A stretch of 64,000 nt of DNA from Trichaptum fuscoviolaceum. Taxonomy: Eukaryota > Basidiomycota > Agaricomycetes > Hymenochaetales > Trichaptaceae. This document shows, piece after piece, positions 12,217 to 52,708 of this stretch (the first letter of the stretch is position 1; each line of letters begins with the position of its first letter). The notes under the pieces were generated by a model, which was not told the origin of the DNA, did not search any database, and was given only the letters and a program-made list of their open reading frames with translations. Location: positions 915,981 through 979,980 of the forward strand of contig CAJSYZ010000006.1 in NCBI GenBank assembly GCA_910574455.1, read 5' to 3'. The position numbers and the translations under genes were made by a program.

Positions 12217-13649
12217 TGTGAGGGTGATGATGTCTTGCATAAACAACGTCTAGGAGCAAGTCTTTTATATGAGTTTAGGTACCATAATCATCGGTCCCGG
12301 GGATGACTCCAGTGCCAAGAAAAATGTCCCGAAGCGAGCGGAGTAGTTTTGAACGGTAATGCAGCCGAGCTGAATGTAATATTGCCTTCAACTTCAAGTT
12401 CTGACTTCATTCAATCGTCGTGTGCGCGTAGGACCCACGAGTCATCTCAAGAAATTACTAAGTCACGCTCCACCAACTTGAGCCAGCGCGGAGCCGAACG
12501 AAGCTTGTCGTCGTGTGAAACTCGTGTACAACTTGCTGAATTAGAACATGCTGATCGATCCAAGCGACTAGACGTTCAAGTTGTACTGTTGCAGCGAAGA
12601 CGAGGAGACGTGTGGGCCCGAGCAACAGGAACGATTATCAGATGCCCCTCACTGCACGGCTCGGGCTGCAGCGTAACAAAAGAAAGTGAGTTCATGCCTT
12701 AACCAGATGTAAGAACAATGAGGCTTTGGATCTCCTCGCAAGCCCGCATCGTTCTGTACCCGAGAACGAGCATAGGACACGACGTATGTCACAAGGCGTG
12801 GAAATCGCCTAGAAACGCAAGTCAAATGACTTCTCTTGTGTCCACTGCATACTTTATACCAGATGAGTCTGGTTTGATAACAGTGTTGTTACACTCCTTG
12901 ATGACTGTCTGACACAACTTCAAATGCCGTTCCGCGACCTGCTTTCGAATTTGTACGTACCTCATAGAAAAGGAGCATCAAAATCTGCCTGCAAAGAAAG
13001 ATACAAATTGCCGCACCGGTACTCACTTGCTTCATTGAATTTAGGTGTAACTTTGGCCAGAGAAATATGCTTCACAGTTGTGGCCGCATTGTTCTCCTAC
13101 TCCGTCATAGGATAGTGCGTCGGACTGCTCTCCGCTTATGGAATCCATAAGTCCATCGTTCTCGACTTTCCATATTTTGCAGCTAGGTTCTCCAAGGCAC
13201 ACTTAGAATATAGTGTCGTATCCTCTTCAAGTCGAAGCCACGGTCCCCCAATTGTTTGCCCACTGGTTATCCAAGCCACGGACATCACGTCGAGTCGTGT
13301 CCACCCTTCCTTTAGAATACGGGTCATATGAAATCCGTGTCGTATGCATTCCTCGGCAATGGTTTTTCGTCCGATGCGCCTTGGCTGGCTCAGTACTCAA
13401 ATCATCTTCTTATAAGAACATCAGAAATACACTGAGTCAAAGAGACGAGCCACTTACCCTACTCAAATTTGAGCATTCAAAAAATTCAAAAGATGATGGT
13501 CGGTATACAACACCAGGCATGAACTCAGGTAAATGTTTGAATGAAAGCCGCGGCTAAATTTGAAAGAATCGAAACTTATGTTCAAGTTGTTATTAGTACG
13601 AGCGTGAGTAAGGAATCCCTTATCTGTCTATTGTAACTTGAATACTACT
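12217..13649. other. Flank of transposon A, no supported gene
   Basis: Region between the P450 promoter and the left end of transposon A. Open frames are short and unconvincing. It contains several perfect NN-C-nn-G-NN words: TTCAAGTT at 12393, 12575 and 13581, GCCGCGGC at 13547, and AACTTGAA at 13635, eight bases from the transposon end. Confidence 0.5.
12263..12271 (-). promoter_or_regulatory. TATA box of the P450 gene
   Basis: Minus-strand ATATAAAAG about 47-55 bases upstream of the ATG at 12216. Its position makes the in-frame ATGs at 12240 and 12246 too close to be used as starts. Confidence 0.5.
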
Positions 13650-13663
13650 ACATCAGGAAAACT
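13650..13663 (+). repeat. Left terminal inverted repeat of transposon A
   Basis: ACATCAGGAAAACT; the matching right end is the reverse complement of ACATCAGGGAAACT, one mismatch. Confidence 0.75.
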
Positions 13664-14259
13664 ACTTTCTGCTGAAACTGACTTAAGTGTTACTTAAACG
13701 TCCTGAGAGACTGAAGTCTTAAATAAGACAAGCTTCACTTATTCATGCATGTCCTCCCATTATTCAGGACAAGTTGGCTGAAATAAGTGCGGGCTGGCTT
13801 AAATAAGGAAAGATGGCTGAATCAGTGCTCTAAGTGTTTCAGGCATTCAGCACCCCAGTGCTCCAGTGTATCATCCTTTAATTACAGCAGTAGACAAGTG
13901 TTGTAAGACGAATTGCAGTGCTCAAGAGTCTAAGTGCATAAGAACGATCCAAGTATTTCATTGCATCAGAAATATATAAGACAACATTATGTAGCTATCA
14001 GTGCCTCAGTGTTCAAGTACATCGGTCATTTACGCAAGACTAAGCATAGCAGTCGCTATCATGGGATCCGCCACGACATTATCCTGAACCTCTTCCGTGA
14101 CGGGCAGTGGCAGGCCACATTTCCCTGCCGTGCCTTCGTTTCCACTGGTACGCCAAAGAACATGCAGAATTGAAGACTGCTCTGCGAGTCGATGGTAATA
14201 TAATATTGAGCGCACGGACAGAAACGAAAAGAAGAGGCTCACCAGTGATCAATTTGCCC
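13664..14259. repeat. Left subterminal region of transposon A with repeated short motifs
   Basis: Non-coding stretch rich in recurring pieces: CTTAAATAAG, GTCCTGA/TCAGGAC, GGCTGAA(A/T)TAAG, and a run of AGTGCTC / CAGTGCTCCAGTG units. The same pieces, inverted, occur in the right end of copy B (54890-55040). Such subterminal arrays in CACTA-type elements are binding sites for transposon proteins; that role here is inferred. Confidence 0.6.
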
Positions 14260-14329
14260 TTAGAAGTCTACGCAGTCCGTAGCCGAATCCCATTTTGAAG
14301 CGTCGTCCTCCTCCTGATCACCATCTCCA

Positions 14330-14384
14330 CCTAAATCCTCGCCCTCGCCCTCGTTCTCGCCCTCGTCCTCGTCCTCGCCCTCGT

Positions 14385-14418
<34 letters not shown>

Positions 14419-14420
14419 AA
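14330..14420 (-). repeat. Acidic Glu/Asp-Gly minisatellite in the accessory gene
   Basis: Tandem 6-base units of CCTCGC/CCTCGT type (plus strand) encode alternating E-G, E-D residues. Copy B has fewer units (38565-38610), so the array length changes in frame between copies. Confidence 0.8.
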
Positions 14421-17323
14421 TCTTGTCAACGCCCTCGTCCCTGCTCTCGCTCAGGTCGTCGTCACCCTTAGCATTAGCATGCTCGTCCTCTGCATCACCT
14501 TCCACCTCGCCTCTATACTCAGCCCCCTCATGCTCTTCGCCCTTATCGTCGGTTCCGTCTTCCCAATTATCAGCACCTTCGTCATACGCTTTCTCGCAGG
14601 TCGAATCTGCATCTACAATGTCAAAATACAAGGAAAAGTCCCTGCCAGTGATACCCGATCCAACAAGTTCGGTGTTCTTTCTCGTATCGATATCTGTACT
14701 GGCATCGTAAGCTAGGAGGCGGGATCGAACCTTTTCCCAGTTTGATTCAGTGAAGAAAGAGGGATTCGACAACAAGTTAACATAGTCGTCCGTATGAGGC
14801 TGCCACAGAGCGCTAGTGAAATACCACTCAGCGCCGCCAAGTTCTTCTTTGATATTTTGCAACCGAGCCACCTGTTTATCAATGGCAACCTTGACCTATC
14901 CATGAGAAGATCAGCGAATAAGGACAATATAAGTGCTGAAAAAAGTAGATACCGCTGTTGCCGCAAGGGCGAGGGCACCGATAGGCTTTCCTATGGTGTT
15001 TCTGTCCAGTTTTTATGCCGACCCATGGCCAAGACAATGTGTACGGACAACACTGAGACCACAAGGTCAGAGCAGAACAGTCCTTGCTTCTGTACATTTA
15101 GAGTCAATGCATGGACACAAAATGCGACAATAAACACTCTTTTACTTACCCTCTCCATACTATACCAGCTTTCCCATAGAAACGGTTCGGCTTTCTTCTT
15201 GTCAACTAGCGTCTGCAACGTCTTCACAATTGCTTCATTTTGCATCGACTTTGATTGTTCGCCGCTGATAAAACTTGCAACTGATTGCTCAGCTTTCTCA
15301 AAAAGTTTCTTGCGCCAGCTATCAGAGCATCTCTGGGCCGCCTGAAATACGAGGATTGCATCTCAATTTGGTAAAGGTAACTTGAGAATAAGTAAAAATG
15401 ACTCAACTAGAGAACAGATATCGGCGAACTGAGTTTCGTAACTGAGTTCCACAGAATCAAACACTTTCCCCCACAGTGAGCTGATGAGCTTATTGTCCGG
15501 GGTTTGCCATGGTGTGACGGACTTTCCAACTGCGCGAAATAGTGAAGGTAATAGAATATGAGTCCAACCTGCCTGAGTACCGGGAGGGAGACACTGGTTC
15601 GTCGCCCTTTTCCTGCCTGGCACGCGAGATCCTTCCCTTCCTTCATTTCGGTCCTTGTCCTCAAGTCCCACTGATGTCTGCATATCAGTAAATCAGCAAA
15701 ATATGTCATAGAAATGAATTTGATTCGACAAACTGAGCTAGTAGTCCGAGAGACTTTGCGATGACCTTGATAAGCCCCAGTCACTAACACTTCGGGTCCG
15801 GGGGTGCAGGATGCTCTCGTCATTGCAAGCGACGGTGCTCGAGGTGCTAACGACATCTTTCGACCACCAGACTATTAAGAAAAAAAGGTGAATGCTCGCA
15901 TTTAGAGTGTATCAATCGACTCTCACTTACTTCATTATCAGCCACCAGCGACTGCCTCTTGCGATTAGAGGTAGCGGATCCAAGCTCCGGCTGCAGCACG
16001 TCAGAAAGCTGTTATCCGTGGCAAGTGAACGACTCGAAAAGAAGCACTTACTGTCGTATCGGCCTCAGGCCGATAAGGAATGTCAGAGGGTTTCCTCTTC
16101 TTACTCCAGTCCTTTCCGCCTGATCAGATACGAACTTAAAATGCCGGTTACCATAGAATTGACACTTACTGTGGCACCGGCCTGTGTGTCCATGTCAGTC
16201 AACAATGACTTCTTGATCTTGACAGCCTTATTAGCCTATTGAGATGGTTTAAAATAAGTAAACATTTAAAAAGAGTGCGGTCTGGTTACGAGACTAGAAG
16301 GAATTCATTGCACGTGAAGGTAGAAGAATTACCACATTAACCTGAGAGTCGGTGTCTGGTGGCGACTTCCTCTTTCCGTTCTTTGTGACTGTGATGTCCT
16401 ATTCATATGCACACATTAGCGATCAACTTGAAGTGAAGAAGGAAACGAATAGTTGCCACAGGAGAGCACCGGAAGTGAGCCTAGGGTGCATCGACACTCA
16501 CACATACCTGTACACGGGGTTCCAAGGCTAGTGATTGCACCTTACAACCATAAATAAGGGGGGAACGAGAGAAGTTGAAATAAGATAGACTTACCGGTGC
16601 GCTAAGCTGCGAATTAGCAGTTCTCTTGTTTGCATCCTATCAAAATACCAATTCAGTAAGCAATGAAGGAAGGATGTACCATGAAGATCACTGTCTGGTA
16701 CTCACCTGTCCACCTGGTTTTATCTCGTTGTTCTTATCCTCGAGTACGGGAAGGGATTGCTTAGTAGAATGAAAAATGAAAAATGATATGACATCGCTTA
16801 CCGTTGAAACCTGCGACCCGGAAAGAGTGTCATGCAATAACTTCCTTTTCTTCGAGTTGAGGTTGCTGCTACCTCCATCCTGTTCATGACACGGCAGTTG
16901 GCAGATAAATAATAACGAAGGGATATGAACAAACGGTCATGGAGTAACTGACGTGAATCGAACAGAAATAAGTCGTACTCACACAAGCTTGAGCCGGCCT
17001 TGTTAGCCTCTTCGGATTGCTTCCGCCCTATAAACAAGTTATTCAGACTGCATTTGCCATTCTAATGCTCCGTCAACTCACAACATTTGATTCCGAATCG
17101 ACAAGATGTGCCTTCTGTTGCACACTGATTGTGCTATTTTTTACACCATGATAGCTTGTAAGGGTGATTGTTTCTCCTTCATCCTCCCAGGGACTTAAGT
17201 TTTCATCATCTGGCAATGAGATGGTGTGTCTGGTGTAGCTTTGCGTCAGCAAGGCTCATAATACAGTGGTAACAAGGACAAGAGCGTCAATATTGCAGGT
17301 GAAGGACTTCCAAGTCGGGTCTT

Positions 17324-17390
17324 GGCCCGGGAGCGTCACGGTCAACTTGAACCGCTGGCACCGTGACCGCAGTGACACTGGCAGCCTGAG
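17324..17390 (+). repeat. Cluster of six NN-C-nn-G-NN words
   Basis: GGCCCGGG 17324, GTCACGGT 17335, AACTTGAA 17344, ACCGTGAC 17360, CACTGGCA 17376, AGCCTGAG 17383. All six fit one rule with five different dinucleotides (GG, GT, AA, AC, CA, AG). The same cluster is in copy B near 41501-41567. It lies in a non-coding part of the accessory gene, probably an intron. Confidence 0.85.
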
Positions 17391-18541
17391 TGGCAGGCTC
17401 ATTAGTAATCTAGTACTACTACTAGTAGTAGTCGGGATGATGTTTAATCGCACTCACCATTACATTGACTTGACAGTACAAGATACTGATTCAGACGCAA
17501 TGCAAGATTCAAACTTCAAACTCACAAATTGATCCTTTCTGAGTCTATCCCTGCCACTGGCACCTCAAGACCTCCACCCTCTTCACCGATGAAAGTGGAA
17601 TCATCTGTGTTGCGAAGCGCCCTGACAGGGCGTTTTGTCTTGTCGTTCCGCCTTGACGTAGCGGGCGAGTCTATTATGTCCGTTTCTTCACCAGAAAGAC
17701 TCTCGTTCGGTCCTGCAGGAGCGTGAAAGAATGCGTCGCTGGGAGTGGCGGCAGACCTGGACATCTTTGCGGTCTGCACACGTGTGCGAAATGGAAGTTC
17801 ACCTTTGGAATCTTCTTTCCTAGCCTTTTTTGCAGGCTTCCTGTTTGGCTCATCCATACTCGCTGCTTCGCATTAAGGTGAGTCACAGTGTTCAACCTCC
17901 AAGCTTTGAGATGATCTGAAAATGTATAGGCAATGTTACTCACGAATATCCAAGTCTTCGTTGTGTCCATCTTCACAACCCGATACGTCTTTAACATCGT
18001 TCTTCGAGCCTGTTAATGCCAGTTCAAATCTGTGTCATCATTGATCTAAAGTTGAAGACTTACAGCTAGCTTCGCCTTTCGGCTTTCTACGTCCACGTTT
18101 GCCAGTGAGTTTAGGCACTGTTGAACCCATCTGGGTGCGTGTCTCAAGAGCCTTCGACAAGTTGTTTTCAAGCTCTACGGTCTCTAGCATCGCTGCTTCT
18201 TGGTTCTCTGCTGCAGTCACCTTCTTGCGAACCTTGTCAGCTGCCTCTTGTTCTTTTGCTGCCCGTTTTTGCTCCGCAGCGAGTTTTTTCCTCTCTTTCG
18301 CAACCGCGACTTGCTGGGCCGCAGCTCTGCGGAAAGCTGCCCGCTCTTCCTTCTGCTTTTCCTTCTCTTCCTTCCCTTCAATGCCTCATCCCGCCTTTCT
18401 GCCTGCCGTACTCTCCTTTTCTCTTTTTTCTTCCTTCTCCCGCAATATCTCCTCCTGTGTTCGTCTTGTTCTGAGTTGGTCAACGACTGCTCCGGGGTGC
18501 TTTTCCCTGTTCTTAGCCCTTGTCTGTCTTTGAGTTGACAT

Positions 18542-18819
18542 TTTGTGCAGTGTTTTGAGACTTGTATGATGATAAGATGTGTCGAAGGTGCAAGTTCAAG
18601 ATCAGGGAGGCGGGGGCGTCTATCTTAGACAAGTTGAAAATTTACGCCCACTACTACTGTGACTCAGGCTACTCTATGACTAATTTTAACTCAGGTTCAA
18701 GTTCACTGGCACTCCGAGTCCGAGTCACTGCCAGTGCTAGCAGCCTGCCAGTGCCAGTGAGGCTCAGCTGTGAGTCCCAATTGTCGACGTGTACTACTAC
18801 TGAGGTTACATTCAAGTTG
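18542..18819. promoter_or_regulatory. Divergent promoter region between accessory and transposase genes (copy A)
   Basis: About 280 bases separate the two divergent starts. The segment is dense in the 8-base words (CTCAGGCT 18663, CACTGGCA and TCCGAGTC near 18700-18720, TGCCAGTG near 18746). An open frame crosses it in frame with the transposase from 18562, but the ATG at 18820, just before the zinc finger, is the better start. A promoter role is inferred from position. Confidence 0.45.
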
Positions 18820-21800
18820 ATGCCAGCGACACGGAAAAAGCACGATCCCTTTCATTTTCCACCAACTATTCGATGCACCTTGCCCGGCTGTAGTAGGATG
18901 TTCAAGAGTCAATCTGGAAGAGCAAGACATGAATATTCAGCTCATCCAACGTCATTCTTGGCAAGTTCTTCTGCTTGTGGTCATGAATATGAATCGTCAC
19001 CTATTCGACCCATTCGAGCTCCAAGTCCTCAACTTGAAGCTCTCCTGAGGTCGTCCGAACTTCCATCAGAGGGTCATCTTGAGAGCGGCTCTGACTCCTA
19101 CGATTACGATATTTCCATGCTTACACAGGATATCTCGATGCTCAGTATAGGCCGAGACGAGCTGCTTCAAGATTTGGACAGACCTGATTCTCTGTCCCAT
19201 TCTGTCACCGGAAGTGACAGTGGCCGTTCTGAAGACTTGGATTCCGACATTGGAGATTATAAGGAGAGCGAGGATAACTTGAAGGTGTATCACAGATACT
19301 TGAATGGTGCGCGCCAAATCAATTGTTCCCGGTTTACTGTAGCATTTTGACACCAAACATTGTGCAGCCATTCCATGCGATGCAGAAGGGAACTTCTTAG
19401 AATATGAAGACTCACCCGCTCCGCGAAACGAATCTGCATCAAATGACTGGTTTCCCTATTCATGCCGAGCAGATTTTGAGCTCGCAGATTTTCTCTATCG
19501 GGAAGAGCAAATGTCTGCTGGGAACATAACAAAGCTTCTGGGAATCATGAAGGCTTATCAACTGATTCAGGTGGCGGAGAATGTAAAATCTGGCGGATAT
19601 TCCGAATTGGATGCGACAGAGCCTGACAATGACTTGGATCAGGATACAACTAGTAGTACGCTACTCGATGGAGACGCGCAAAAAATGTATAACGCCATTG
19701 ATGCTACGAAAGTTGGTGATGTGTCTTGGAAATCCTTTAGTAACTTCTACACAGACGACAATGGCCAAAAGGCGACAAACGAGAACACCGAGTCATGGAA
19801 GAGGAAAGAATATGATGTATGGTATCGGGATCCTCTGGAAGTGATCCGGAATTTGGTGGACAATCCGGCGTTGGAAGGCGAATTCGACTATGTCCCGTTT
19901 CGCGAGTATCAGCCGAAGGAGGACTCTGATGACAACAAAGAACGAGTCTTCAGAAACTACATGTCCGGAAATTTTGCTTGGGAACAGGCTGTAAGTCATA
20001 AATCATGCAGCATTCGAAGTTCGAGGAAGTGTTCTGATTATCCTTGACTTAGAACAAAATCTACGCCGAAGATAAAGCAGTCCATGGGTCCATGTTTGTT
20101 CCGGTGATCTTAGGGAGCGACAAGACAACAGTCTCCGTTGGCACTGGCAACAACGAATATTATCCGTTATATCTCTCAATAGGAAATGTATCTAACAAGG
20201 CCCGGCGGTCCCAAAAGTTGAATACAGTCCAGCTCGTAGCATTTCTAGCAATACCAAAGAGTGTGTGTTACAAGCTTGAAGTGACCTATTCGATTGTGTT
20301 CTGACACTTCAAGTTTGCAGCTGAGCGGCAATACGAAAAGTCAGATGACTTCCGTCGCTTTAGACATCAAATCTTTCATTCATCTATATCAAGAATCTTG
20401 AGTCCACTGAAGACCGCAATGTCTATAAACAGTGAACATACCATTCTCCGGTGCCCTGATGGTCACTTGCGTAGGTCGGTTCTCGGACTCGGCTCGTATA
20501 TAGCCGATTATCCGGAACAGGTGAGTCTATGCGCAATATGCACTGGATGGTGCTGCAAGTAAGTATTGTCCTTTCCAAAAATCACATCGACTTGAGTTCG
20601 AGGAAATGGCTTAATGCGGCTACTATATAGATGTACAGCACCTCACAAGAACCTAGATAATCCGGAATTTGTTACAAATCCTCAAACAAAAGAGCTGCAC
20701 GAACGATTGATAGAACAGGTGGATGACAATAGCATAAGTAGAGCCACAATTCGTAAGGAGTATGGGTTCCACCAAGATATCGTCGTATGTGTTCCAACTT
20801 CAAGTTGTCCATTAGATGCACTTACCGCAACTATGTCCCGTAGCCCTTCACCAATGATTTTCCGCGTGCAGATATATGCGATCTCATTTCTCCAGACCTA
20901 CTGCACCAAATCATCAAAGGCGTATTCAAGGATCACCTTGTTGAGTGGATTTGCCAGAGCTTGACCACGACAGAGCTGGACGTTGTGGATAGAAGGTACT
21001 CTTCTCTCACAAGACATATAATGCAAATGCCTTTGCTAACTTCCACGTAGAATAAGAGTTGCTGCTCCCTTTCCTGGACTTCGTAGATTCCCCGAAGGCC
21101 GAGGCTTCAAGCAATGGACAGGCAATGATTCTAAGGCACTTATGAAAGTATGTGACCTTTCTATCTTGTTTGAGGCGGGGGTTTGCTGATATTTGATGCA
21201 ATTTGCTTAGGTGTATCTTCCGGCTATCGTGGGCATTGCGCACGATGATATGATTCGCGCATTGAGTGCATTTCTGGACTTCTGTTACCTTGTGCGTCGG
21301 TACACGATTACAGCCTCAACTCTTGATCAAATAAAAGCCTCTCTGGATCACTTTCATCAATTTCGGCAAATATTCATAGCCAAGGGCATCCGGGATAACT
21401 TCTCACTGCCACGACAGCATGCCATGGTCCACTATCCTACAATGATCCCTCTCTTTGCTGCACCGAGCGGGCTGTGCTCGTCAATCACAGAGAATAAACA
21501 CATTTACGCGGTCAAGGAAACATGGCGACGCTCAAACAGAAATGATCCTTTGGGTCAGATGATCACAGCAAACGAACGACTAAGTAAACTCATTGCAGCC
21601 AGGGCAGACTTCAAAAGGCGTGGAATGCTGGACAATTCGTTGGCGGAGGCTTCGTGGAGAGCTTTGCGTGATGTTCTGCGCAAGAATATGTCAGAGTCGG
21701 AGGAGGATGAAGCTGAGAGGACCTCAAATTGGAGGGAGCAGGTGCAACATTGTGGTGCTCCATTGGCAAGGGCAAGCGATGATACAGAGGACTTCTTCGA

Positions 21801-22835
21801 TGACATTGTGGGCAAGAATGAACTCAACGAAATTGCAGACCTGGAAGATCCCGGGAGCTTAGTGCATGGGCCACAGCATCTTGCGGTTCAAGGCATACAA
21901 CATGCTGAACGCCAGATGCGCTTGGGTGGCAGAAATGACCCTTTGAGCTTGATGTTAATGGCTTCGAAGCAACGTTAGTATTACTTAGCAACCCATGCTT
22001 TTGGTGCTGCACATCTGACTTCTTTGTTGTCATCCTTGCAGAGTCCAGTACGGTGTACCCTAAGCAGCTCAACGCTCTTGCGGCGATAAAAGGCCATCCA
22101 GAGCTCCGACAGCTCCAACAGCTCATTAAAGAATACTTATTCAACAAGGTCGAGAAGCGCAACTCCAACTTAAGGGGCTCCTCCGGCAGAGCCGAACCAG
22201 CAGTTGAAATGGACATGTGCAATGACTTTTCAATTTTCCATTCAGCCACCGCTTTCTTTGCCTACCGTGGCGAATCAATCCCTATAGAACAAGCAATGAG
22301 GGAGGTGATCAGGTCCAATCCCTCTTGGCGCGGAAAACCTCGACGAGATGCCGTTCTAGTCCGAGTTAATTCCCGCAAAAAGGGGTTTGCAGGAATGCGA
22401 GCCGCTCGCGTTATGCTTCTTTTCTCCTTCACCGCTAAAGGAAACCATCACGAATGCGCTCTCGTTCAGTTTTACAAGCGCGTTGGAGATTCGCCTGATA
22501 CAAAGTCAGGAATGTGGATTGTTGAACCAGAGTATGAGTTAGAGACCTCTACCGCCTGTGTCGGAGCTTGTCCTCAACTAACTCGGAGCGGCAGTGACAC
22601 TAGTAACCACTCTACTACTAGTACTAGTAGTACTAGCAAGACTCCGAAGCTATCTGTAATAGCTCTAGGGCTTATCTTTCGATTAGCTCACCTTCTTGGG
22701 GTTACAAAGGGTGATGAATGTCCTCCAAAGTCATTGACACCTGAGGAGTCCCTGGACTTCTACGATAGATTCTATGTTAACCGATTTGCTGACATGCACA
22801 TGCATGAAACATTGTTCGAAAGTAGACAACAATAA
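18820..22835 (+). CDS. Plavaka-family transposase, copy A (intact)
   Basis: Nine exons: 18820-19306, 19368-19990, 20053-20260, 20321-20558, 20631-20784, 20844-20995, 21051-21147, 21211-21973 and 22042-22835; total 3,516 bases, 1,171 residues with no internal stop. The N-terminus has one C2H2 finger (IRCTLPGCSRMFKSQSGRAR then HEYSAH; C-x4-C-x12-H-x4-H). The body carries the family signatures: FELADFLYREEQMSAGNI, WYRDPLEVIRNLVDNPA, DYVPFREYQP, GSMFVPVILGSDKTTVSVGT, YYPLYLSIGNVSN, CPDGHLRRSVLGLGSYIADY, DLLHQIIKGVFKDHLVEW, FPEGRGFKQWTG, FSLPRQHAMVHYPTMI, GLCSSITENKHIYAVKETWR. The tail ends DFYDRFYVNRFADMHMHETL. It should bind the element ends and cut and join DNA; I did not assign the catalytic acids. 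Confidence 0.95.
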
Positions 22836-23330
22836 AGATAAACCTCTATTTAGCACACAAAGTGCCTTGAAACCTATGAAGGATACAACTTATTGAGTTG
22901 CTTGATAGTCCTCGATATACCAGCCAGAGTACTTTATGTAAACTGGAAGTTGCGACTTTTAACTTCAACTTCACCTTGAAGTTCAACTTGAACTTGAAGT
23001 CGTACTGCTACTAGGCGACTAGTAGTATCAAACATAGTATATAAATAAATAAATAAATTTTTAGTAGTATATAGTAATCAAGAAAACGACCTCACACAGT
23101 TGCTACTAATACTACCGATAGTAGTGCAGCGTAGTGCGAGAGGAGCATACTAATAGGACAGGATAAAAGAGTGGCATAGGAAGTAGAAAAGTCGTGTTAC
23201 ATTTGTAGCAGTGTACTAACAATTTGAACGAAATGCTCGGACTTTGGTAGCATGAGTTAACGACTGAAAAATACCATAATACATACGATGAAGGAAAGCG
23301 CTAACATACCAGATGCATATCATTGCACTA
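22836..23330. other. 3' region between transposase and cargo gene, copy A
   Basis: Copies A and B stop resembling each other right after the transposase stop codon. The stretch holds AACTTGAA-type words around 22940-23000 and an (AAAT)n microsatellite near 23042. No gene. Confidence 0.5.
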
Positions 23331-25372
23331 TTACGAGCTCGAAGAATGTCCTACTAGATCATGATGCGACCGCCATACTGACATCATCACCAGAACCCGG
23401 CGTTGAAGGGAGTAATTTCTCGAGAAGCGCCCGCAATATGTCGTAGTCGTTACACAGGCATTCGTCGGATGCCAATAAATCGCACCGGCAGTGCTAGTAG
23501 TACCGCTCAGAGTGTGGACTCCGTGTGACACGAAACTGTCAATTTGACGTTCTGTTGCGATAAGGTCGTCTCCGTGATAGTCGCCATCTCTGAGGCAATT
23601 GGTAACTTTTATCAGAATTCTCTCGTGGCTAACTTCGTCTTCCGCTCCAAATAGGCCTTTATTGCGTATCCTTGCCAAGGCCACAGCTAAAAAATCCAAG
23701 TGCGAGGTGTCACTATCCGAGTTAGCCCTCAGGCTGCGTTGAAAGAGACTCATTGCGGCATCATTCGTGAGCAGCAAGTCCAAAAGATCAACATCAAGGA
23801 GGATGGTCAGACATTTCCTGACTATATTAAACTTCTTCAGGAGGGCCTGATGTTCTTCGCGTAATTGATCTATTTTCCAGGATTTTTCTGCATCCTTCAC
23901 AGTTCGTCTGGCACTGTCGACGGCATCACCGGCGACCTGAGTGAGCGACTGAAAGGTTTCGTCTGTGCGTTTGAAGTGGCACCGTACGTCAAGCGCAGAC
24001 CCATATCGAAAGACAGAAGCACGATCGAGCTGTGTATAGGTTTGTGTCGGCGGGCCGTTTGTATTAATCCGAGTCATGAGCAGGGCTTCCGTGACGAGCA
24101 ACCATTCCTTGCACTCGTTGTATGTCCAAATAAGTAGAGGGACAAAGAACCTGAATGCAAGCTTCAGATACTCAATTTCTTGAGGTATCGTTGCATGTTG
24201 TGGGGGCAGAGAGACAAAACTCCGGTGAGGAACAAATTTGTCGGTGATTGCCTTCCAATAGGAGCTTGATAAATGTGTGCAAGGAGGTGTAAGTGTGCTA
24301 GTGTCCGCGTCTGACTCCGCAAAATCACGGAAGACTGAATTTACTTGACACTCGTAAAATCTGTCATTTTCCTTTCCTCGAACCGAGACGCATGATTGGT
24401 ATTTTCGGTGTAAGCGAATGAGGAACGTATTCCAAATGACGCCACCATTGAGCCGATTGATGGGTAGTCTTGAAAACTTTGTATTGGGGAGAAGAGTTGC
24501 AAAAGCAGATGCCACAGCAAGCCTGAGTTTGCCCACACTGTCCCAAACTTGAAGTGCTAAGTGCGCCGCCTGTATCAGGAGCAAAAATTAGTATTTGATA
24601 GTTTCAATGCCAAGTTCAAGTCAGCAACTTGAACGCATTTGCCACTCACCACAGTCTGATCCTGGGATCTAGCCGTGCACCGGCCTAGGTGCACGAAAGG
24701 ACTTGGGAGCCAATCTGAAGTTACTATGTTCGGTGTGTCATGCCCACTGGCATATCCAGTACCAGCGCCACTGCTTGCTAGTAAGGCAGCATCAAGTTCC
24801 TCTCTGAGCAGTGCCTTGGGATGATTCGGGAGTGGAGTGTCCACTTCAACAGCCTGAGGATCACTGTCAGTGGCAAGTCCACATTTGAGCAACGCCAGCT
24901 CTTCGGCTTGCGAAATGACCAAATCCCTGAGCTCAATCCTTTCAACACGGTTTCGGTTCAACGCACGTGCCACCCTACTCTCAGTCCTTGCGAAGCGTGT
25001 ATTCACAGCTCGGATTGTGGCGGAGAGGGATTCGGCCAAAGCAAGCGCCACGCGATATTCCCTCGTCTGAATGGTGTACCCATAGCGTTGATAATGCAGC
25101 GCAGCACGTTGGATTAACGAACGCAAGTTATCCACTACATCTTGGTCGAAAAGCGGGTTGAAATGAGTTGCAGCCCGGTCATCTTCACCTGTCAGTGATT
25201 GCAAGGATAATCCGAGTCGTTCATCTGTATCCAGGATGAGCTGGTTTATCATCGACAAATGCATCATGTCTATGATTCGTACCTTCCAACGGATTTTCGT
25301 CCCAGTCACTCCGCGAAGCTTGAGCTCGAATCGCTGCCAGTGTCCGAGTCACTGTCACTTAGAATTGGCATC
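23331..25372 (-). CDS. Transposon A cargo protein C1, unknown helical family
   Basis: Two exons are well supported: 25240-24650 and 24569-23331, joined in frame, about 610 residues ending at 23331. A 5' exon from about 25372 (MPILSDSDSDTGSDSSSSFA) probably precedes them, but an apparent one-base shift or an unseen intron near 25306 leaves its join unresolved. The first large exon is helical with a coiled-coil feel (SATIRAVNTRFARTESRVAR, then ISQAEELALLKCGL). The second has YWKAITDKFVPHRSF, LKLAFRFFVPLLIWTYNE and LREEHQALLKKFNIVRKC. These pieces line up in order with parts of cargo proteins C2 and C3. No known domain recognised. It lies tail-to-tail with the transposase, inside the variable part of the element. 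Confidence 0.6.
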
Positions 25373-27519
25373 TTCGGAGATGACTGATAAAACGGGTGGC
25401 AGAGTGGGTGCAGCAGAGTGGGTGCAAAATATGAGCTCGAATATTCCTTCTGATAGTGTGCGCGGGGATTCGGACTTAATGATATACAAAGGCAAGTTGG
25501 TCGTGACCACGCCAATCGATAATGCACGCTGATGATCGATTTTTGCGGTCCTTGTATGAGGAGGGAAGGAGATTCAAGTTGCCCTTTACTACTAGTATGA
25601 TGGTGACCTGAAGTTGGTGACGGCTCGGGGCCCGGAGGCTGCCAGGCTCAGGCTGCCAGTGGCATCAGTGCGCCGGTGCCAGTGGTACTAATCAGCTCCA
25701 ACTTGAACTTAAAGTTCTCAGTGACCTCTGAAACTCTTCATCATGACTCGGATGCAGTGTGGAAGCGGCAGTCTCATCACTGGCAGGAGCCAGCCAATGT
25801 ATCAGGCGAATACTTCTACTACTAGTACTAATATCACTTACTACTAGTTGTACGTTGCTACGCTCTTCATCAACTTCCATTCCTACTAGTACGGCAGAAC
25901 GTAACTACCTCAGTTCAAGTTGCCGCAGCGCTAGCATCATGATCATCTTCGAGCCATGAGTACGCCGGTAGCAATACTACTATACTACTTATCAGTAGTA
26001 CTAGTAGTATTCCGGGTCGTAAAGATCCGATTCAGTCGGAGTAATCTATTGTGACTACTTTTTCTGGCTCGCTGCTGGCATAACTTTAAATTTTCACCGT
26101 AGTACTACTTCTACAGCATATTCAGAAAACTTGAAGGATGACAGCCTGAGTGCGCACTTTTGTGCTTTTTTTCTATCCGACCCTGATTCCTTTAGTACTA
26201 CTAGTAGTATGGGGAAGCTCGGACGTACCCACTGGCAGACAATATTCTCAACAGTGTGAGCTGCGTGCCGGTGACCCTTGTTTCTTGAAAGTCGTTTGTG
26301 ACCGGAAGCCTTTGTCCATCCACAAACTTAGATACTCTACTGCCTTGACCTTTCAAGTTGATACTTAACTCCATGCAAATACAATAGTATACTAGCTAAT
26401 ATAAATGTAAGAGCTTCAGCAACTACATATAAGATCATAGGACTTTCCCAGCACGTGAACTTCTTCATGATAGTACGGTACTACTCAGGCTAGTAAGGCA
26501 ATCAGGGTCGGGTAGAAAAAAAGCACAAAAGTGCGCACTGTCATCCTTTTCTGAATATGCTGTAAGTTCATGATCAATCAAGCCCCTAACTTGAGAACTA
26601 CGCGCCTGAGGCTTGTGCTGAAGTACCGGACAACGGTGATTAAGAGAAGTTCGGAAGCCCTTTAACTGAATGATGTTCTAGTTCAACCGGCGCTGGCTTC
26701 AATATGAACTTCGATTTTCCCACTCCAGTCTTCTCTTCCCGGCCGCAGGCTCAAGGTTTTACAACTGTGACTCAGGCTTCATGTCGAAGAAGCGTTCACA
26801 CCACTGGCAGATGTTTATATCAGATTCAAGTTATAGTGAATTCCCACCACCTGGCCGTGCCTCAGGCTCCGAGTTTACTACTAAGTAGTACTACTACTAG
26901 TAGAACGCCGAAGTGCCGGCATCATACTACTACTCTAGTAGTACAGTAGTACTAGCCTGAGTATGATATGACAGTGATACCGGGCCGTGACGCCGCCTCC
27001 GAGTCGGAGTTCGAGTTTATCCGACTGCCATGGCAGTGCACTGGTACCGCGCCGCACTCAGGCTGGCAGCCTGCCAGTGAGTAGTAGTAATTAGTAGTAA
27101 TAGTACGTAACTTCAAGTTGAACTTGAACCTGCGACTCGGACTTCTTCATGTTTCAATTCAGTTGAACTTGAATTCAAGTTTGAGACTCCGCCTGAAAGC
27201 TGTACTTGGAAAAAGCCTTCCTCGTTCACTGCCAGTGGCGACTCGGACGAACTTCTTCGACTTCTACATCTGTACTCAGGCCGGAAACGGAGAATTGGTT
27301 CAACTGGCTGCTTGAGACGTGATCGGGGAGCATCAACGTGGCAACGACTTCAAGTGTATAAGAAGTGTCAGCAATAACTACTTCAAGTTAGTAAGAACGT
27401 ACGCACTCTTTGTTTCTCTTTCATCTTCAACATCCTGCCAGTGGCGGTGACGCTGACTCTGCATACTGTCTCAACTGCTATACCCCTGACTCCCGTACGA
27501 CTGTTCGTAAACTACGACC
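25373..27519. other. Word-rich non-coding region of transposon A
   Basis: About 2.1 kb without a supported gene. It is packed with the 8-base words: TACTAGTA near 25590, 25824 and 26202, TGCCAGTG 25660, CACTGGCA 25781, 26229 and 26803, GACTCGGA 27133 and 27238, and TTCAAGTT. The words are often adjacent or overlapping. It also contains the inverted repeat 26111-26565. Confidence 0.7.
26111..26565. repeat. Inverted repeat with arms of about 80 bp, possible small non-autonomous element
   Basis: Left arm from 26111 (CTACAGCATATTCAG...) to about 26196 (...CCGACCCTGATT). Right arm from about 26493 to 26565 is its reverse complement. Spacer is about 300 bases with no frame. The left arm carries two perfect words missing from the right arm: AACTTGAA at 26128-26135 and AGCCTGAG at 26143-26150; the right arm has only AA and AG at these points. 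This makes it direct internal evidence that the words are insertions. Confidence 0.8.
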
Positions 27520-29794
27520 ATGAAGAAAACCCAGGCCCAATCTTCAGCGAAAGGGAAGGAGCATCCGCGTCGTCAGCGGCAGTCCCAAAGTCTCCGAGAC
27601 ACAACGCAGGCGCCTCTGGCAGCTGCCAGTGGAAGCGACCCGACTCAGAGTGTTAGTGTCAGCTCACCCGACCAACTAAGCAGAGTTGGTCCTGTTGGTA
27701 CGCATGTCATCTCATAGTCTGCCAGCCCAAGCACTGATTCTCATATTTTACGAACAGCCAGGCTCTATTCCACAGGCCTACTTCCCGCTAAGGCGTTTGC
27801 TGAGCAAAGGAACATCGACGACACCTTGGCAAAGATTGTCGAGAAGCCGGTTGCGCCTGTCCCCCCTCGTCCCATTCCTTCCTCGAGTTCAAGGACTCCA
27901 GCTCGGCGCACCAGCGAGTCAGACGAGAGTACCGCACTTTCGAGCTCATACAACTCGCAACCAGCTTCCACAGCCGATACAAGCTTGGACAGCTCGATGA
28001 CGCAATCCAAAGTCGATACTAACAGCACAACGGCTCTTTCTGCGACTCCGCCCGACACGCATACTCGTGGAGCTACGTTTATAAGGCACCTAATGGGTGC
28101 TTTAAATTCGTTGTTGACAGGTGACGATGCCCATTATGACAAGCTCCATCGTTTAGACAGCATCTGTAACGACATGGAGGACGAATTCCGCTCTTACTTG
28201 AAGAGCATGGTTGCCGAGAACGCAAACCCAGTGCCAAAGGAAGAGAATTCCTCTCATGCTGCAATCGATACTGCTACGCGGCTGGAAATGGGTTTACCCA
28301 TGACTTCGCAGTGGCCCAACGAAAAAGCGGTCACTACCTCGGCCGTGTGGGCAAATTGTCGTTAGAGGAGACTGCCTGGATCGTCCAGGAGAAGAAGCTT
28401 AAGGAGTTGGAGGAACATCACAAGAAGAGTCTTTTACTTTTAACATCGATAGAGGCAAAGCAGGGCTGTCTCGACCAGACCTTTCGTGAACAACGCGATG
28501 CCACATCATTATCCATCGAGGCAAAGTTCAACTACCTGGTCCATCAGAATTTCAGTCTTGAATCCCGGCTTAACACAGCTTTGCGAGCTATAGAGGGCGT
28601 GAGTGCAACTTAAATCATCTACTACACTTCAATTTGCTCACGCCTACCATTTAGTCTTTGTACGCCCTCTGCACGATAACGTTGCGAAGGCTGTTAGAAG
28701 ACGGACGAGGCTACGTATACCAGGGCATGGAGGCTGTGTTTCCTGCATGGGAAAAGTTTCGGTTTCATACCGCTGTCCCTTACGAAGTGTCTGGAATGAG
28801 TGGCATCAAGACCGAGAATTTCTTAGACTCCGTCCAGAACTTGTTCAACCATTTCCATGATCCCATCACGATTCGGTATCTCTTCGACGATCTAGTGGAC
28901 TCGGATGGCGATAGTAACAAGACGGTGAAGGATCTCCTTAGTGAGTCGGCACTTCCGTTGAAAGAGGGCGCGTCAAGAGATTCGACAGTGAGCGATGTGT
29001 ATGATCTTTTCTCCTTTTTTTTGCCGCGGATCGAGTTGGTCCATCTCTTTTTCCATCTCCTATATCAAAAGCTGGATATTACGGTGCAACGCCTGGAAAG
29101 TGAAATGTCCGGGCAGCTCGTGAAGGTCGATGAATCCAACTACAATAATCCCGTCAAGGTGCACTTAAAGCAATTGCCAACTGAGCTAGACAAGCATACG
29201 ACGCTCAAGTTCTTGTTCGAGGATTTATTGGACGCCATGTCCGAAGCTGATTATGAAGGTCCTATGCACATACCCATTCGCGACGTGATTTACCCTCCCC
29301 CACCGACTCCCGAGTCATCTGAATCGACACCATCCGGTACAAACCCGACGCAAAACCCGACGCAAAACCCGGCTAAGACAGAGCCTACTACTAAACTAGT
29401 CCAGGATAACGCCGATAGCGCTTATATAACTTCGAGGAGACCGGTCAAAGTCAAGGCGCTCGAGGCTCAATTTAGGGCATTGGATGTCAAAACAGCTGCT
29501 ATTCGGAAGAGGATATCGGAGGCGGAGAAGGATCAGGATTTGCGCAATGCCATAGAGGGGCTCAATTTCGAAGGGTCCAAAACCTCGGATGTTCAGAGGC
29601 TGATGAAGGTGCTGAGGCGTCGCAACGAAGCTAGACAAACTTCGACTTCGCTTAACTACCTCATCAAGATGGTGGAGAAGAAGCTGCTCCTGAAGGAGGT
29701 TTTAGATGATGGGAAGCTCCGGAATCTGCTGAACCGACATGCCCATGACCGCATCCGAAACACCGATCAACAGTTCGGTTTTTGCTCTCATTGA
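27520..29794 (+). CDS. Transposon A cargo protein C2, unknown coiled-coil/helical family
   Basis: Exons 27520-27697, 27758-28291, 28366-28598 and 28655-29794 give 694 residues with matching phases. The N-terminal 230 residues are Ser/Thr/Pro-rich and disordered (IVEKPVAPVPPRPIPSSSSR). Then comes a coiled coil (EETAWIVQEKKLKELEEHHK). The C-terminal 380 residues are helical: LYALCTITLRRLLEDGRGYV, VYDLFSFFLPRIELVHLFF, and a Lys/Arg-rich end with VQRLMKVLRRRNEARQTS. The FFLP-type helix parallels FFVPL in C1 and FFIPLF in C3. The 28292-28365 intron has a weak donor (GTTTAC) and is the least certain join. A further open frame in another phase (29739-30044) follows at once. No known domain recognised. 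Confidence 0.6.
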
Positions 29795-30044
29795 TGACTG
29801 CGAGCGTCTTTTGGGCATGCGTCTAGAGCCGGGACAGAAAGAAAGGCTGGTCGAGATCAACCATTTAATGGGGAATAGTCGTCCCTATGGGCGCGAGTAC
29901 TCCACGAACATTGAGATTGAGTGCCCTCAATCCCTCATCCATCTCGAAGCCCACAGCAAACTCGATCTGACCGTCATGAAAGCAGGGCTAACGAAGCTAA
30001 ACTCATCGTATACTAGTGGCTTAGTACGGAACTCAAAGAAGTAG
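29739..30044 (+). CDS. Open frame overlapping the end of cargo gene C2
   Basis: Starts MPMTASETPINSSVFALI and continues ERLLGMRLEPGQKERLVEIN to 30044. It overlaps the C2 end by 56 bases in another phase. It may be the true C-terminus of C2 after a frameshift or unrecognised splice, or a separate small gene. Composition looks coding. Confidence 0.35.
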   Translation: MPMTASETPINSSVFALIDDCERLLGMRLEPGQKERLVEINHLMGNSRPYGREYSTNIEIECPQSLIHLEAHSKLDLTVMKAGLTKLNSSYTSGLVRNSKK

Positions 30045-30419
30045 TGGGGATTTGCATGTTTGGAATTACAGTCTGTCGACTCTAATAACTTGGCGTCCTC
30101 CATCCTGTCATTTTTCCTGGCGATTTGCGAGTATTTGTTCCTGTGTTTGTATGCGCTGTCTGCAGAGATTTCGATATAATATTTATTAACTGAGATACAC
30201 TGGTATGCATCGTGATATCTCCTGTCAGTGAAGTTGAAGTCCGCAAATTCTTCTGCCTGAGTATCCCCGAGATCAGAACTTGACATTTTGGAGATTAGTA
30301 GTAGTTGGCAGTAATGAGTGGCGGCTTCGACTTCTATACTGAATCTGCTGATGAACTTATCTTCAAAGTTGTACTTGCCATTTTACTTAAACTGTGCACG
30401 CTCGTGCTTAAATCTCACT

Positions 30420-30615
30420 TGAGCCTGGCTTGGCGCCTGATGTACAACTTCCCTCCTTATGCACTGATTTCGTCCTGAAACACCGTGTTCTAAGGCCATC
30501 AGGCAGCCAGGCAACGCTTCAGGTAGGCATGGCATCGCTTCATCCCATTTAAGGAAGCTTCAGGACGCGCCAGGACGCGCCAGTCGCCGTAAGCAAACGG
30601 AAGTTTCCCTGATGT
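30420..30615 (+). repeat. Right terminal region of transposon A
   Basis: About 195 bases similar to 54697-54850 plus 55010-55072 in copy B. Contains tandem AGGACGCGCC units, CAGTCGCCGTAAGCAAACGG, and ends AGTTTCCCTGATGT at 30615. Copy B has about 180 more bases between the two parts. Confidence 0.75.
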
Positions 30616-30651
30616 ACGCCGAGTCGCAGCGCCTCTTGAGTGTTGACTTCC

Positions 30652-37473: not shown

Positions 37474-37875
37474 TTTAAAGGGGATGATGGAAGGAGATAA
37501 GAAGTCTCTAAGCCTGAGGCAAGGGTTGAGCCGACCGGACTCGGAGTCCTTGAAGCGTCCAATTAGAGTATTATGTAACTTGCATTTTGTTCCAGCCTTT
37601 TGGCCGCTGATTATCCTTGCAACCTAAGGGCTTGTGCAATTTAGACACAGTGAGTATCTCAAGAATGGTCGGGCTTCTGAACGAGATGGCAAGGTTAATA
37701 GGAAGATTTTCTTTGACTATACTTTTCTTGAAAAAAGCGTTGAATAGCAATGCAAGGAGCATATGCATCACAGCTCATCCTACAGTAAATTGAAGACTTT
37801 CGCTAGTTAATCTAATGAGCTACTTGCAAAGGACTGAGCTGATCGAAGCCTGAGGGCCTTGGTCACGCTGCAACT
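37474..37875. other. Upstream region of PNP1 up to transposon B
   Basis: No gene. Contains words AGCCTGAG at 37511 and GACTCGGA at 37538. Confidence 0.5.
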
Positions 37876-37889
37876 ACATCAGGGAAACT
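37876..37889 (+). repeat. Left terminal inverted repeat of transposon B
   Basis: ACATCAGGGAAACT, a perfect match to the inverted right end at 55072. The following subterminal motifs (to about 38480) are the same as in copy A. Confidence 0.78.
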
Positions 37890-38485
37890 ACTTTCTGCTG
37901 AAAGTGACTTAAGTGTTACTTAAACGTCCTGAGAGACTGAAGTCTTAAATAAGGCAAGCTTTACTTATTCATGCATGTCCTCCCATTATTCAGGACAAGT
38001 TGGCTGAAATAAGTGTGGGCTGGCTTAAATAAGGAAAGATGGCTGAATCAGTGCTCTAAGTGTTTCAGGCATTCAGCACCCCAGTGCTCCAGTGTATCAT
38101 CCTTTAATTACAGCAGTAGACAAGTGTTGTAAGACGAATTGCAGTGCTCAAGAGTCTAAGTGCATAAGAACGATCCAAGTATTTCATTGCATCAGAAATA
38201 TATAAGACAACATTATGTAGCTATCAGTGCCTCAGCGTTCAAGTACATCAGTCATTTACACAAGACTAAGCATAGCAGTCGCTATCATGGGATCCGCCAC
38301 GACATTATCCCGAACCTCTGCTGTGACGGGCAGTGGCAGGCCACATTTCGCTGCCGTGCCTTCAATTCTGCATGTTCTTTGGCGTACCAGTAGAAACGAA
38401 GGCTGCTCTGCAAGTCGATGGTAATATAATATTGAGCGCACGGACAGAAACGAAAAGAAGAGGCTCACCAGTGATCGATTTGCCC

Positions 38486-38562
38486 TTAGAAGTCTACGCA
38501 GTCCGTAGCCGAATCCCATTTTGAAGCGTCGTCCTCCTCATGATCACCATCTCCACCTAAAT

Positions 38563-38597
<35 letters not shown>

Positions 38598-41500
38598 CCC
38601 TCGCCCTCAATCTTGTCAACACCCTCGTCCCCGCTCTCGCTCAGGTTGTCGTCACCCTCAGCATTAGCATGCTCGTCCTCTGCATCACCTTCCACCTCGC
38701 CTCTATACTCAGCCCCCTCACGCTCTTCGCCCTTATCGTCGGTTCCGTCGGTTCCGTCTTCCCAATTATCAGCGCCTTTGTCATACGCTTTCTCGCAGGT
38801 CGAATCTGCATCTACAACGTCAAAATACAAGGAAAAGTCCCTGCCAGTGATACCCGATCCAACAAGTTCGGTGTTCTTTCTCGTATCGATATCTGTACTG
38901 GCATCGTAAGCTAGGAGGCGGGATCGAACCTTTTCCCAGTTTGATTCAGTGAAGAAAGAGGGATTCGACAACAAGTTAACATAGTCGTCCGTATGAGGCT
39001 GCCACAGAGCGCTAGTGAAATACCACTCAGCGCCGCCAAGTTCTTCTTTGATATTTTGCAACCGAGCCACCTGTTTATCAATGGCAACCTTGACCTATCC
39101 ATGGGAAGATCAGCGAATAAGGACAATATAAGTGCTGAAAAAAGTAGATACCGCTGTTGCCGCAAGGGCGAGGGCACCGATAGGCTTTCCTATGGTGTTT
39201 CTGTCCAGTATTTTATGCCGACCCATGGCCAAGACAATGTGTACGGACAACACTGAGACCACAAGGTCAGAGCAGAACAGTCCTTGCTTCTGTACATTTA
39301 GGGTCAATGCATGGACACAAAATGCAACAATAAATACTCTTTTACCTTACCCTCTCCATACTATACCAGCTTTCCCATAGAAACGGTTCGGCTTTCTTCT
39401 TGTCAACTAGCGTCTGCAACATCTTCACAATTGCTTCGTTTTGCATTGACTTTGATTGTTCGCCGCTGATAAAACTAGCAACTGATTGCTCAGCTTTCTC
39501 AAACAGCTTCTTGCGCCAGCTATCAGAGCATCTCTGGGCCGCCTGAAATACGAGGATTGCATCTCAATTTGGTAAAGTGATTTGAGAATAAGTAAAAATG
39601 ACTCAACTAGAGAACAGATATCGGCGAACTGAGTTTCGTAAATGAGTTCCACAGAATCAAACACTTTCCCCCACAATGAGCTGATGAGCTTATTGTCCTG
39701 GGTTTGCCATGGTGTGACGGACTTTCCAACTGCGCGAAATAGTGAAGGTAATAGAATATGAGTCCATCCTGCCTGAGTACCGGGAGGGAGACACTGGTTC
39801 GTCGCCCTTTTCCTGCCTGGCACGCGAGATCCTTCCCTTCCTTCATTTCGATCCTTGTCCTCAAGTCCCACTGATGTCTGCATATACGTACATCAGCAAA
39901 ATATGTCATAGAAATGAATTTGATTCGACAAACTGAGCTAGTAGTCCGAGAGACTTTGCGATGACCTTGATAAGCCCCAGTCACTATCACTTCGGGTCCG
40001 GGGGTGCGGGACGCTCTCGTCATTGCAAGCGACGGTGCTCGAGGTGCTAACGACATCTTTCGACCACCAGACTATTAAGAAAAGAAGGTGAATGCTCACG
40101 TTTAGAGTGTATCAATCGACTCTCACTTACTTCATTATCAGCCACCAGCAACTGCCTCTTGCGATTAAAGGTAGCGGATCCAATCTCCGGCTGCAACACG
40201 TCAGAAAGCTGTTATCCATGGCAAGTGAGCAGATCGAAAAGAAGCACTTACCGTCGTGTCGGCCTCAGGCCGATAAGGAATATCAGAGGGGTTCCTCTTC
40301 TTACTCAAGTCCTTTCCGCCTGATCAGATACGAACTTGAAATGCCAATTACCATAGAATTGACACTTACTGTGGCACCGGCCTGTGTGTCCATGTCAATC
40401 AACAATGACTTATTGATCTTGACAGTCTTATTAGCCTATTGAGATGGTTCAAATTAAGTAAACATGAAATGAAGGAATTCATTGCACGTGAAGGTAGAAG
40501 AATTACCACATTAACCTGAGAGTCGGTGTCTGGTGGCGACTTCCTCTTTCCGTTCTTTGTGACTGTGATGTCCTATTCATATGCACACATTAGCGATCGA
40601 CTCGAAGTGAAGAAGGAAACGAATAGTTGCTACAGGAGAGCACCGGACGTGAGCCTACGGTGCATCGACGCTCACACATACCTGTACACGGGGTTCCAAA
40701 GCTAGTGATCGCACCTTACGACCATAAATAAAGGGGGGAACGAGAGAAGTTGAAATAAGATAGACTTACCGGTGCGCTAAGCTGCGAGTTAGCAGTCCTC
40801 TTGTTTGCATCCTATGCAAATACCAATTCAGCAATGAAGGATATAGAATGAAGATCACTGTGCTTCGCTGTCTGGCACTCACCTGTCCACCTGGTTTTAT
40901 CTCGTTGTTCTTATCCTCGAGTACGGGAAGGGATTGCTTAGTAGAATGAAAAATGAAAAATGATATGACATCGCTTACCGTTGAAACCTGCGACCCGGAA
41001 AGAGTGTCATGCAATAACTTCCTTTTCTTCGAGTTGAGGTTGCTGCTACCTCCATCCTGTTCATGACACGGCAGTTGGCAGATAAATAATAACGAAGGGA
41101 TATGAACAAACGGTCATGGAGTAACTGACGTGAATCGAACAGAAATAAGTCGTACTCACACAAGCTTGAGCCGGCCTTGTTAGCCTCTTCGGATTGCTTC
41201 CGCCCTATAAACAAGTTATTCAGACTGCATTTGCCATTCTAATGCTCCGTCAACTCACAACATTTGATTCCGAATCGACAAGATGTGCCTTCTGTTGCAC
41301 ACTGATTGTGCTATTTTTTACACCATGATAGCTTGTAAGGGTGATTGTTTCTCCTTCATCCTCCCAGGGACTTAAGTTTTCATCATCTGGCAATGAGATG
41401 GTGTGTCTGGTGTAGCTTTGCGTCAGCAAGGCTCATAATACAGTGGTAACAAGGACAAGAGCGTCAATATTGCAGGTGAAGGACTTCCAAGTCGGGTCTT

Positions 41501-42722: not shown

Positions 42723-42994
42723 TTTGTGCAGTGTTTTGAGACTTGTATGATGATAAGATGTGTCGAAGGTGCAAGTTCAAGATCAGGGAGGCGGGGGCGT
42801 CTATCTTAGACAAGTTGAAAATTTACGCCCACTACTACCGTGACTACTCTATGACTAATTTTAACTCAGGTTCAAGTTCACTGGCACTCCGAGTCCGACT
42901 CACTGCCAGTGCTAGCAGCCTGCCAGTGCCAGTGAGGCTCAGCTGTGAGTCCCAATTGTCGACGTGTACTACTACTGAGGTTACATTCAAGTTG

Positions 42995-51590: not shown

Positions 51591-51595
51591 TCATG

Positions 51596-52670: not shown

Positions 52671-52708
52671 AGCTCATTGATGAGAGGTGCGTCAAACAGT
52701 CTACCTGA

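Follow-up and report, generated by a model that had tools for sequence, protein, structure and literature searches.

When copies of the same DNA in the genome of Trichaptum fuscoviolaceum are compared, a dinucleotide X in one copy is found replaced in another by the eight-letter word X-C-rc(X)-G-X, where rc(X) is the reverse complement of X, with a net gain of 6 bp. The observation is confirmed, and these words are very probably the excision scars of transposable elements of the PlavakaB type, which belong to the RAG1/CACTA clade. The enzyme behind them is most likely of a known kind, but we have not found its footprint described in this form. The analysis started from a stretch of 64,000 nucleotides, here called the window (positions 915981-979980 of contig C6), and was extended to the whole genome of 59.1 Mb in 12 contigs.

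The insertion rule and its events

The original prediction drew the rule from five events, all of which are present in the sequence exactly as written there: two in the left arm of an inverted repeat belonging to a MITE, and three between two large repeats, A and B (Table 1). A further event, absent from that account, was found at 45325 in B. The prediction had also seen in these events a single uniform process acting on a 2-bp target and looking like a repair signature or the footprint of an enzyme, and in this it was right. Its statement that no described process or enzyme fits is unsupported: resident Plavaka elements, among them A and B, the very repeats compared, have the same 2-bp duplication and the same C and G. 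Two ways in which the rule might fail had been proposed, namely that the words would be no commoner than in randomized sequence and that 6-bp indels would mostly be unrelated to it. The rule survives both, the former run against Markov-simulated sequence and the latter on paralogous copies instead of alleles or strains.

Judged by TA alone, the MITE is Tc1/mariner-like. Several copies of its family, among the matches listed, have inverted arms of at least 50 bp, and 11 further copies have intact ends, five of these lying in near-identical copies of that part of A.

Table 1. Features of the window, in window coordinates; TSD, target duplication
Feature	Position	Strand	Basis or remark
Plavaka element A, 16,964 bp	13651..30614	+	CATCAGGAAAAC left end, GTTTCCCTGATG right end
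TSD TA of A, left copy	13649..13650	.	sequence
TSD TA of A, right copy	30615..30616	.	sequence
Plavaka element B, 17,195 bp	37877..55071	+	ends CATCAGGGAAAC..GTTTCCCTGATG
TSD TA of B, left copy	37875..37876	.	sequence
TSD TA of B, right copy	55072..55073	.	sequence
A ORF, first part of Plavaka transposase domain	19343..20047	+	PF18759 profile 4-102 of 325, E 6.9e-25
B Plavaka transposase domain	44237..45118	+	PF18759 profile 102-325, E 2.5e-65
MITE with inverted arms, flanked TA/TA	26114..26562	.	inverted repeat of the original prediction
Putative scar AACTTGAA in MITE left arm	26128..26135	.	arm comparison; AA at matching right-arm place
Putative scar AGCCTGAG in MITE left arm	26143..26150	.	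arm comparison; AG at matching right-arm place
Putative scar CTCAGGCT in A	18663..18670	.	A/B alignment; CT at 42844 in B
Putative scar TTCAAGTT in A	20308..20315	.	A/B alignment; TT at 44474 in B
Putative scar AACTTGAA in B	44990..44997	.	A/B alignment; AA at 20829 in A
Putative scar ATCATGAT in B	45325..45332	.	A/B alignment; AT at 21163 in A

Six-base indels among paralogous copies

Alignments of paralogous copies within this one genome contain 13 distinct 6-bp indels, and 12 of them fit the rule; five of the 13 are those of the original prediction, and among the eight others seven fit. By chance, 370 of 400,000 random 6-bp insertions fit, as do 4,071 of 400,000 random 6-bp deletions from the word-rich window. 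The core shared by A and B (13647-22833 and its partner, 93.6% identity) contains five 6-bp indels; four fit, and the misfit is TTGAAG at 20275; A/B gaps of 6 bp at 12521 and 13216 lie outside the BLAST-aligned part and were excluded from this count of five. A and B also differ in length by 36 bp at 14335-14371, in a simple repeat of the TCCTCGCCC type. Six near-identical copies of another part of A (3.7 kb, one of just 2.2 kb) have a single 6-bp indel, which fits, and 3-bp TAC/TAG differences that resemble slippage. Both 6-bp indels of the MITE arms, read by eye, fit as well.

The remaining cases come from a repeat on contig C3, of which there are about 27 copies at C3:130000-757600 (L015, L118-L142), many of them 7.5-9.6 kb apart. 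The repeat matches at 28 places, and two of these are the flanks of a resident element. At the Rfam gathering thresholds copy L015 matches nothing, so by that test it is not ribosomal DNA. About 155 bp were aligned in 25 copies, L015 and a copy that holds an element, 27 rows in all. Five separate 6-bp insertions are present in this alignment, at AA, TA, TT, another TT and GA, and all five fit; indels of other lengths (22, 14 or 13, 8, 7 and 5 bp) are off the rule as single events. Such gains by single copies among paralogs speak against an artefact.

Excess of the word in the window and the genome

The word occurs 172 times in the window, against 16.2 expected from order-1 and 15.0 from order-3 Markov simulations. 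Among the 16 combinations of X-?-rc(X)-?-X, the 12 spacer pairs not composed purely of C and G occur 12-27 times each, and CC, GG and GC occur 63, 65 and 51 times. These last three counts fit words nested in words (e.g. AAC-TTCAAGTT-GAA) together with the self-complementarity of TA, and since nesting accounts for them the CC, GG and GC forms were rejected as processes of their own. Fifteen of the 16 dinucleotides are represented as X. Element A (17.0 kb) holds 79 of the words, B (17.2 kb) 65 and the other 29.8 kb 28, so that 144 of the 172 lie within A and B, some of them common to both by descent.

Outside the window, twenty 10-kb stretches taken at round coordinates (200 kb) served as a genome sample. 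The C/G form occurs 164 times there, while the 12 other pairs average 61.4 (CC 94, GG 92, GC 65), and its spread is uneven, from 0 to 36 words per 10 kb. Iterative removal of words gained little, raising the count from 172 to 185 in the window and from 336 to 356 with the sample added. On both strands genome-wide, AACTTGAA occurs 18,963 times, against 5,773 for the mirror word. One stretch (C7:800001-810000, L021) is dense with long nested inverted repeats, with arms of up to 723 bp among the matches listed.

Forms of the word were compared in 117 kb of DNA picked for many words, a choice that inflates the ninefold excess of the full form (268 against 29.5 expected) but does not bear on the comparison between forms. 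Of the forms tested in this DNA, the full one alone shows a strong excess. X-CG-X, X-C-rc(X)-X, X-rc(X)-G-X and X-rc(X)-X stay at 0.93-1.06 of expectation, and with X-C-one base-G-X, taken with either base of rc(X), the range is 0.91-1.06. One-base variants are in mild excess there, X-C-rc(X)-A-X at 1.96 times expectation, X-C-rc(X)-T-X at 1.62, X-T-rc(X)-A-X at 1.46 and X-T-rc(X)-G-X at 1.41, and are read as decayed scars. The excess of X-G-rc(X)-C-X (2.25) and X-C-X-G-X (2.72) in the same DNA is expected because of nesting and self-complementary X.

Plavaka elements in the window and the genome

PlavakaB elements have a TSD of 2 or 3 bp, CATCA..TGATG ends and motifs in common with EnSpm, Transib and RAG1, and are included in the CMCT clade, with its C(2)C and H(3-4)H motifs (PMC12730594). 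Both A and B have the PF18759 transposase, the CATCA..TGATG termini and a 2-bp TSD. The nine stops inside the transposase domain of B are presumably introns. CMCT motifs were located in B by pattern only, unaligned (CAIC at 44690 and HDDIVH at 45412), and further H(3-4)H matches exist. The window also encodes a Nop53 protein at 62318-63127, whose closest named relatives, at about 60%, are from Coniferiporia weirii and Phellopilus nigrolimitatus, both Hymenochaetales.

The ends of the elements read 5'-CATCAGG..CCTGATG-3', i.e. C ATCAGGG..CCCTGAT G, and the CATCAGGG element is the proposed source of the scars. A blind scan for terminal inverted repeats was noisy, although among the matches listed it first revealed the common end at 30602/37889 and at L039/L040. 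The 12-base end CATCAGGGAAAC has 504 exact occurrences genome-wide and its mirror one; with up to one mismatch there are 1,090, against 113 for the mirror control. At least 165 matches to the Plavaka transposase PF18759 are present in the genome, with 123 of 834 candidates scored.

From the first 100 end matches listed, 30 facing pairs 17-60 kb apart were taken and 80 bases fetched per end; one pair 53 kb apart (C2:4447449/4500696) and those more than 100 kb apart were left out. Identical 2-bp target duplications flank 29 of these 30 pairs and, with A and B, 31 of 32. In the 29 fetched pairs the identity is that of the dinucleotide only, with no longer match up to 10 bases. The failing pair, L114/L115, spans 60 kb and is possibly mispaired; L116/L117, with the same spacing, matches. 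For 28 of the 30 pairs the distance between facing ends is 17 to 45 kb, and these may be very large elements or elements that contain others.

Elements and words compared

Given such ends and a 2-bp TSD, the word can be read as the target X, the first base of the element (C), rc(X), the last base of the element (G) and X again. The link between Plavaka and the words is strong. AC/GT, CC/GG and GC, which make up 28% of the background, are absent from all 31 TSDs (p = 6e-5) and account for 17 of 319 distinct words, and over the ten dinucleotide classes the TSD and word ranks correlate at 0.75 (p = 0.012). The enrichments themselves differ between TSDs and words: TA (5.2x against 1.7x), AT (2.0x against 0.6x) and CG (1.1x against 0.3x) are commoner among resident elements, and GA (0.2x against 1.1x) and AG (0.5x against 1.2x) are commoner among words. 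The neighbouring base is also shared. On either strand, C lies directly outside the target at 24 of the 62 flanks of elements (39%, p = 0.011) and at 35% of 472 flanks of isolated words, where the other positions show almost no bias.

Two of the 31 resident elements sit inside existing words, TTCAAGTT (L070) and TGCCAGTG (L088), against a background of 492 of 199,640 positions (0.25%) in the 200-kb sample, and this agrees with what nesting requires. The C3 repeat offers a clean empty site, a single AT, to set beside the element at C3:462845-502591. In the occupied copy, about 30 bp from the element site, an independent word TTCAAGTT stands where L015 reads TT.

No site with an element in one copy and a scar in another was found in three joined-flank searches and in pattern searches. 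The joined flanks of A and of L070/L071 have no paralog, and no empty or scarred copy; the paralogs read for L112/L113 are only empty or deleted sites; and a pattern search for elements at three of the five C3-array scar sites gave none on C3 and one match on C9. L051, a candidate flank paralog of L058, was rejected: it repeats the flank but also has an element end. Copies L129, L137 and L138 have in common an 8-bp deletion whose end falls at the AT occupied by the C3 element, and in L132 a deletion of 7 bp spans that AT; at a guess, these may be imprecise departures. It is thus from matching features that we infer excision as the origin of the words.

A possible route from excision to scar

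Other relatives in Plavaka's clade make flank hairpins, and a similar route could produce the word, although each of its steps, from excision through hairpin formation and opening to repair, is one that we infer. On each side the transposase would cut the strand with the element 5' end, one base into the element, leaving the flank with X and C. The 3' end of the flank would then attack the other strand where element meets flank, giving a hairpin tipped by C, like those that RAG forms at coding ends. Opening of this hairpin by a host nuclease, 2 nt past the tip, would leave C-rc(X) as a 3' overhang, and the symmetric event on the other side would leave C-X on the other strand. The rc(X) and X of the two overhangs would anneal, a single G would be filled in opposite C on either strand, and ligation would yield X-C-rc(X)-G-X. 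Because both target copies are identical, the overhangs would always pair, whatever X is. Later insertions into scars, and departures from them, would build the nested chains.

The uniformity of the words counts against excision, since joining of hairpin ends is seldom so regular. We consider it somewhat more probable than not that RAG1-clade excision is here near-deterministic, with one element base per tip, one fixed opening place and matching ends supplied by the target, and that the element has acted as a 6-bp, frame-keeping insertion mutator, almost independent of sequence, leaving about 30,000 scars, a figure obtained by scaling an excess of about 103 words per 200 kb to 59 Mb and valid if the sample is representative. 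Coding ends made by RAG are closed as hairpins, and these are opened by Artemis, either at the apex or 2-4 nt away (PMC13041557). The genome has nine matches to PF07522, the Artemis/Pso2-type domain.

Other explanations of the word

Plavaka excision might break the DNA and a polymerase then copy rc(X), the broken ends folding back or switching template. This is close to the snap-back copying suggested in the original prediction and would give the same product, and the present analyses separate neither from hairpin opening. Snap-back copying could give rc(X), but opening of a flank hairpin needs fewer steps; if the C were added without a template, this would have to happen at both ends each time, whereas the element itself already ends in that base, and copying should vary in length, of which there is no sign among the forms tested. 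We regard it as unlikely. Other elements with C..G ends and a 2-bp TSD might also have left the scars, or aborted insertions might have done so in place of true excision. In favour of this, only one family was followed, and its ends are variable, with 1,090 matches at up to one mismatch against 113 for the mirror. The MITE was rejected as such a source: its 12 copies with both ends intact are all flanked TA/TA, so that it is unable to make any other X (a 13th, L038, has decayed ends), and Transposase_21 (PF02992, CACTA type) has just three matches in the genome. Such origins seem quite improbable.

A host or foreign enzyme unrelated to Plavaka might instead make 2-bp staggered cuts that are mended to the same word. 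The want, in the flank and pattern searches, of an element and a scar at one site and the imperfect agreement of the TSD and word spectra would suit it, but the length of the TSD, the terminal C and G, the avoided dinucleotides and the neighbouring base would all be left to coincidence, and we think it very improbable. The words could, lastly, be functional motifs, such as binding sites inside elements, or products of microsatellite slippage; their concentration inside A and B and the slippage-like 3-bp indels point that way. X varies, however, the C3 repeat has single-copy gains, the units are whole 6-bp ones, several at isolated dinucleotides, and single words are present or absent among otherwise equal copies, so that this origin is barely credible. 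Excision of PlavakaB elements remains the preferred reading.

Comparison with known systems

The transposase family, the CATCA..TGATG ends and the 2-bp TSD are those of PlavakaB (PMC12730594), for which that paper describes no excision footprint, the word 'footprint' occurring 0 times in its main text. A Plavaka-related deletion has been reported, but it is not an excision (PMC9674265). In the literature searched, a single paper contains both 'Plavaka' and 'footprint', the latter in a reference title about viruses. Judged by titles and the openings of abstracts, no paper on such a scar was found in that literature, which hardly covers older plant work on CACTA footprints.

Coding ends in V(D)J recombination are unrelated in sequence and their joints are diverse, whereas here both flanks carry the same X, one element base would lie at the proposed hairpin tip and the joint is nearly constant. 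The likeness to RAG1 and Transib is in common transposase motifs (PMC12730594), and palindromic nucleotides beside the break are an outcome of hairpin opening (PMC13041557). Footprints of Ac/Ds (hAT) likewise have palindromic flank nucleotides explained by hairpins (PMC4561436), but the TSD of hAT elements is usually 8 bp (PMC12730594). The scars here have a 2-bp TSD, a single form and one base per element end, and a hAT footprint was rejected on the TSD length.

Tc1/mariner elements are known to target TA, and we know of no inverted target copy in their footprints; with 15 of the 16 dinucleotides serving as X, such a footprint was rejected for these scars. Tc1/mariner footprints do resemble them in keeping the TSD copies with some end bases (PMC4561436). 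With mPing/Tourist the likeness is repair guided by pairing of the two TSD copies (PMC4561436), but the site is then mostly restored, and here there is a fixed addition of 6 bp. The soybean CACTA element Tgm9, of a related superfamily, leaves short excision footprints as well, but these are reported as 4 and 0 bp in two lines (PMC4015899) and so are not of this fixed form.

Implications

PlavakaA elements have TGT..ACA ends and a 2-bp TSD (PMC12730594) and, if our reading is true, should leave X-T-rc(X)-A-X, as relatives with a 3-bp TSD should leave the 3-bp version. The first form occurs 41 times against 28.2 expected in the 117 kb of word-rich DNA, no higher than other one-base variants, and for the 3-bp form the C/G pair occurs nine times against 1-8 for the other 15 spacer pairs, an excess that is not clear.

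If the words are excision scars, genomes with PlavakaB would keep a readable tally of past excisions, even where the element itself is gone, with the target dinucleotide preserved in each scar. Since a 6-bp scar keeps the reading frame, excision may yield two-residue insertions in proteins. The fungus would also offer a relative of RAG1 in which the outcome of repair is set by the target duplication, and hence a simple system for the study of hairpin opening and joining.
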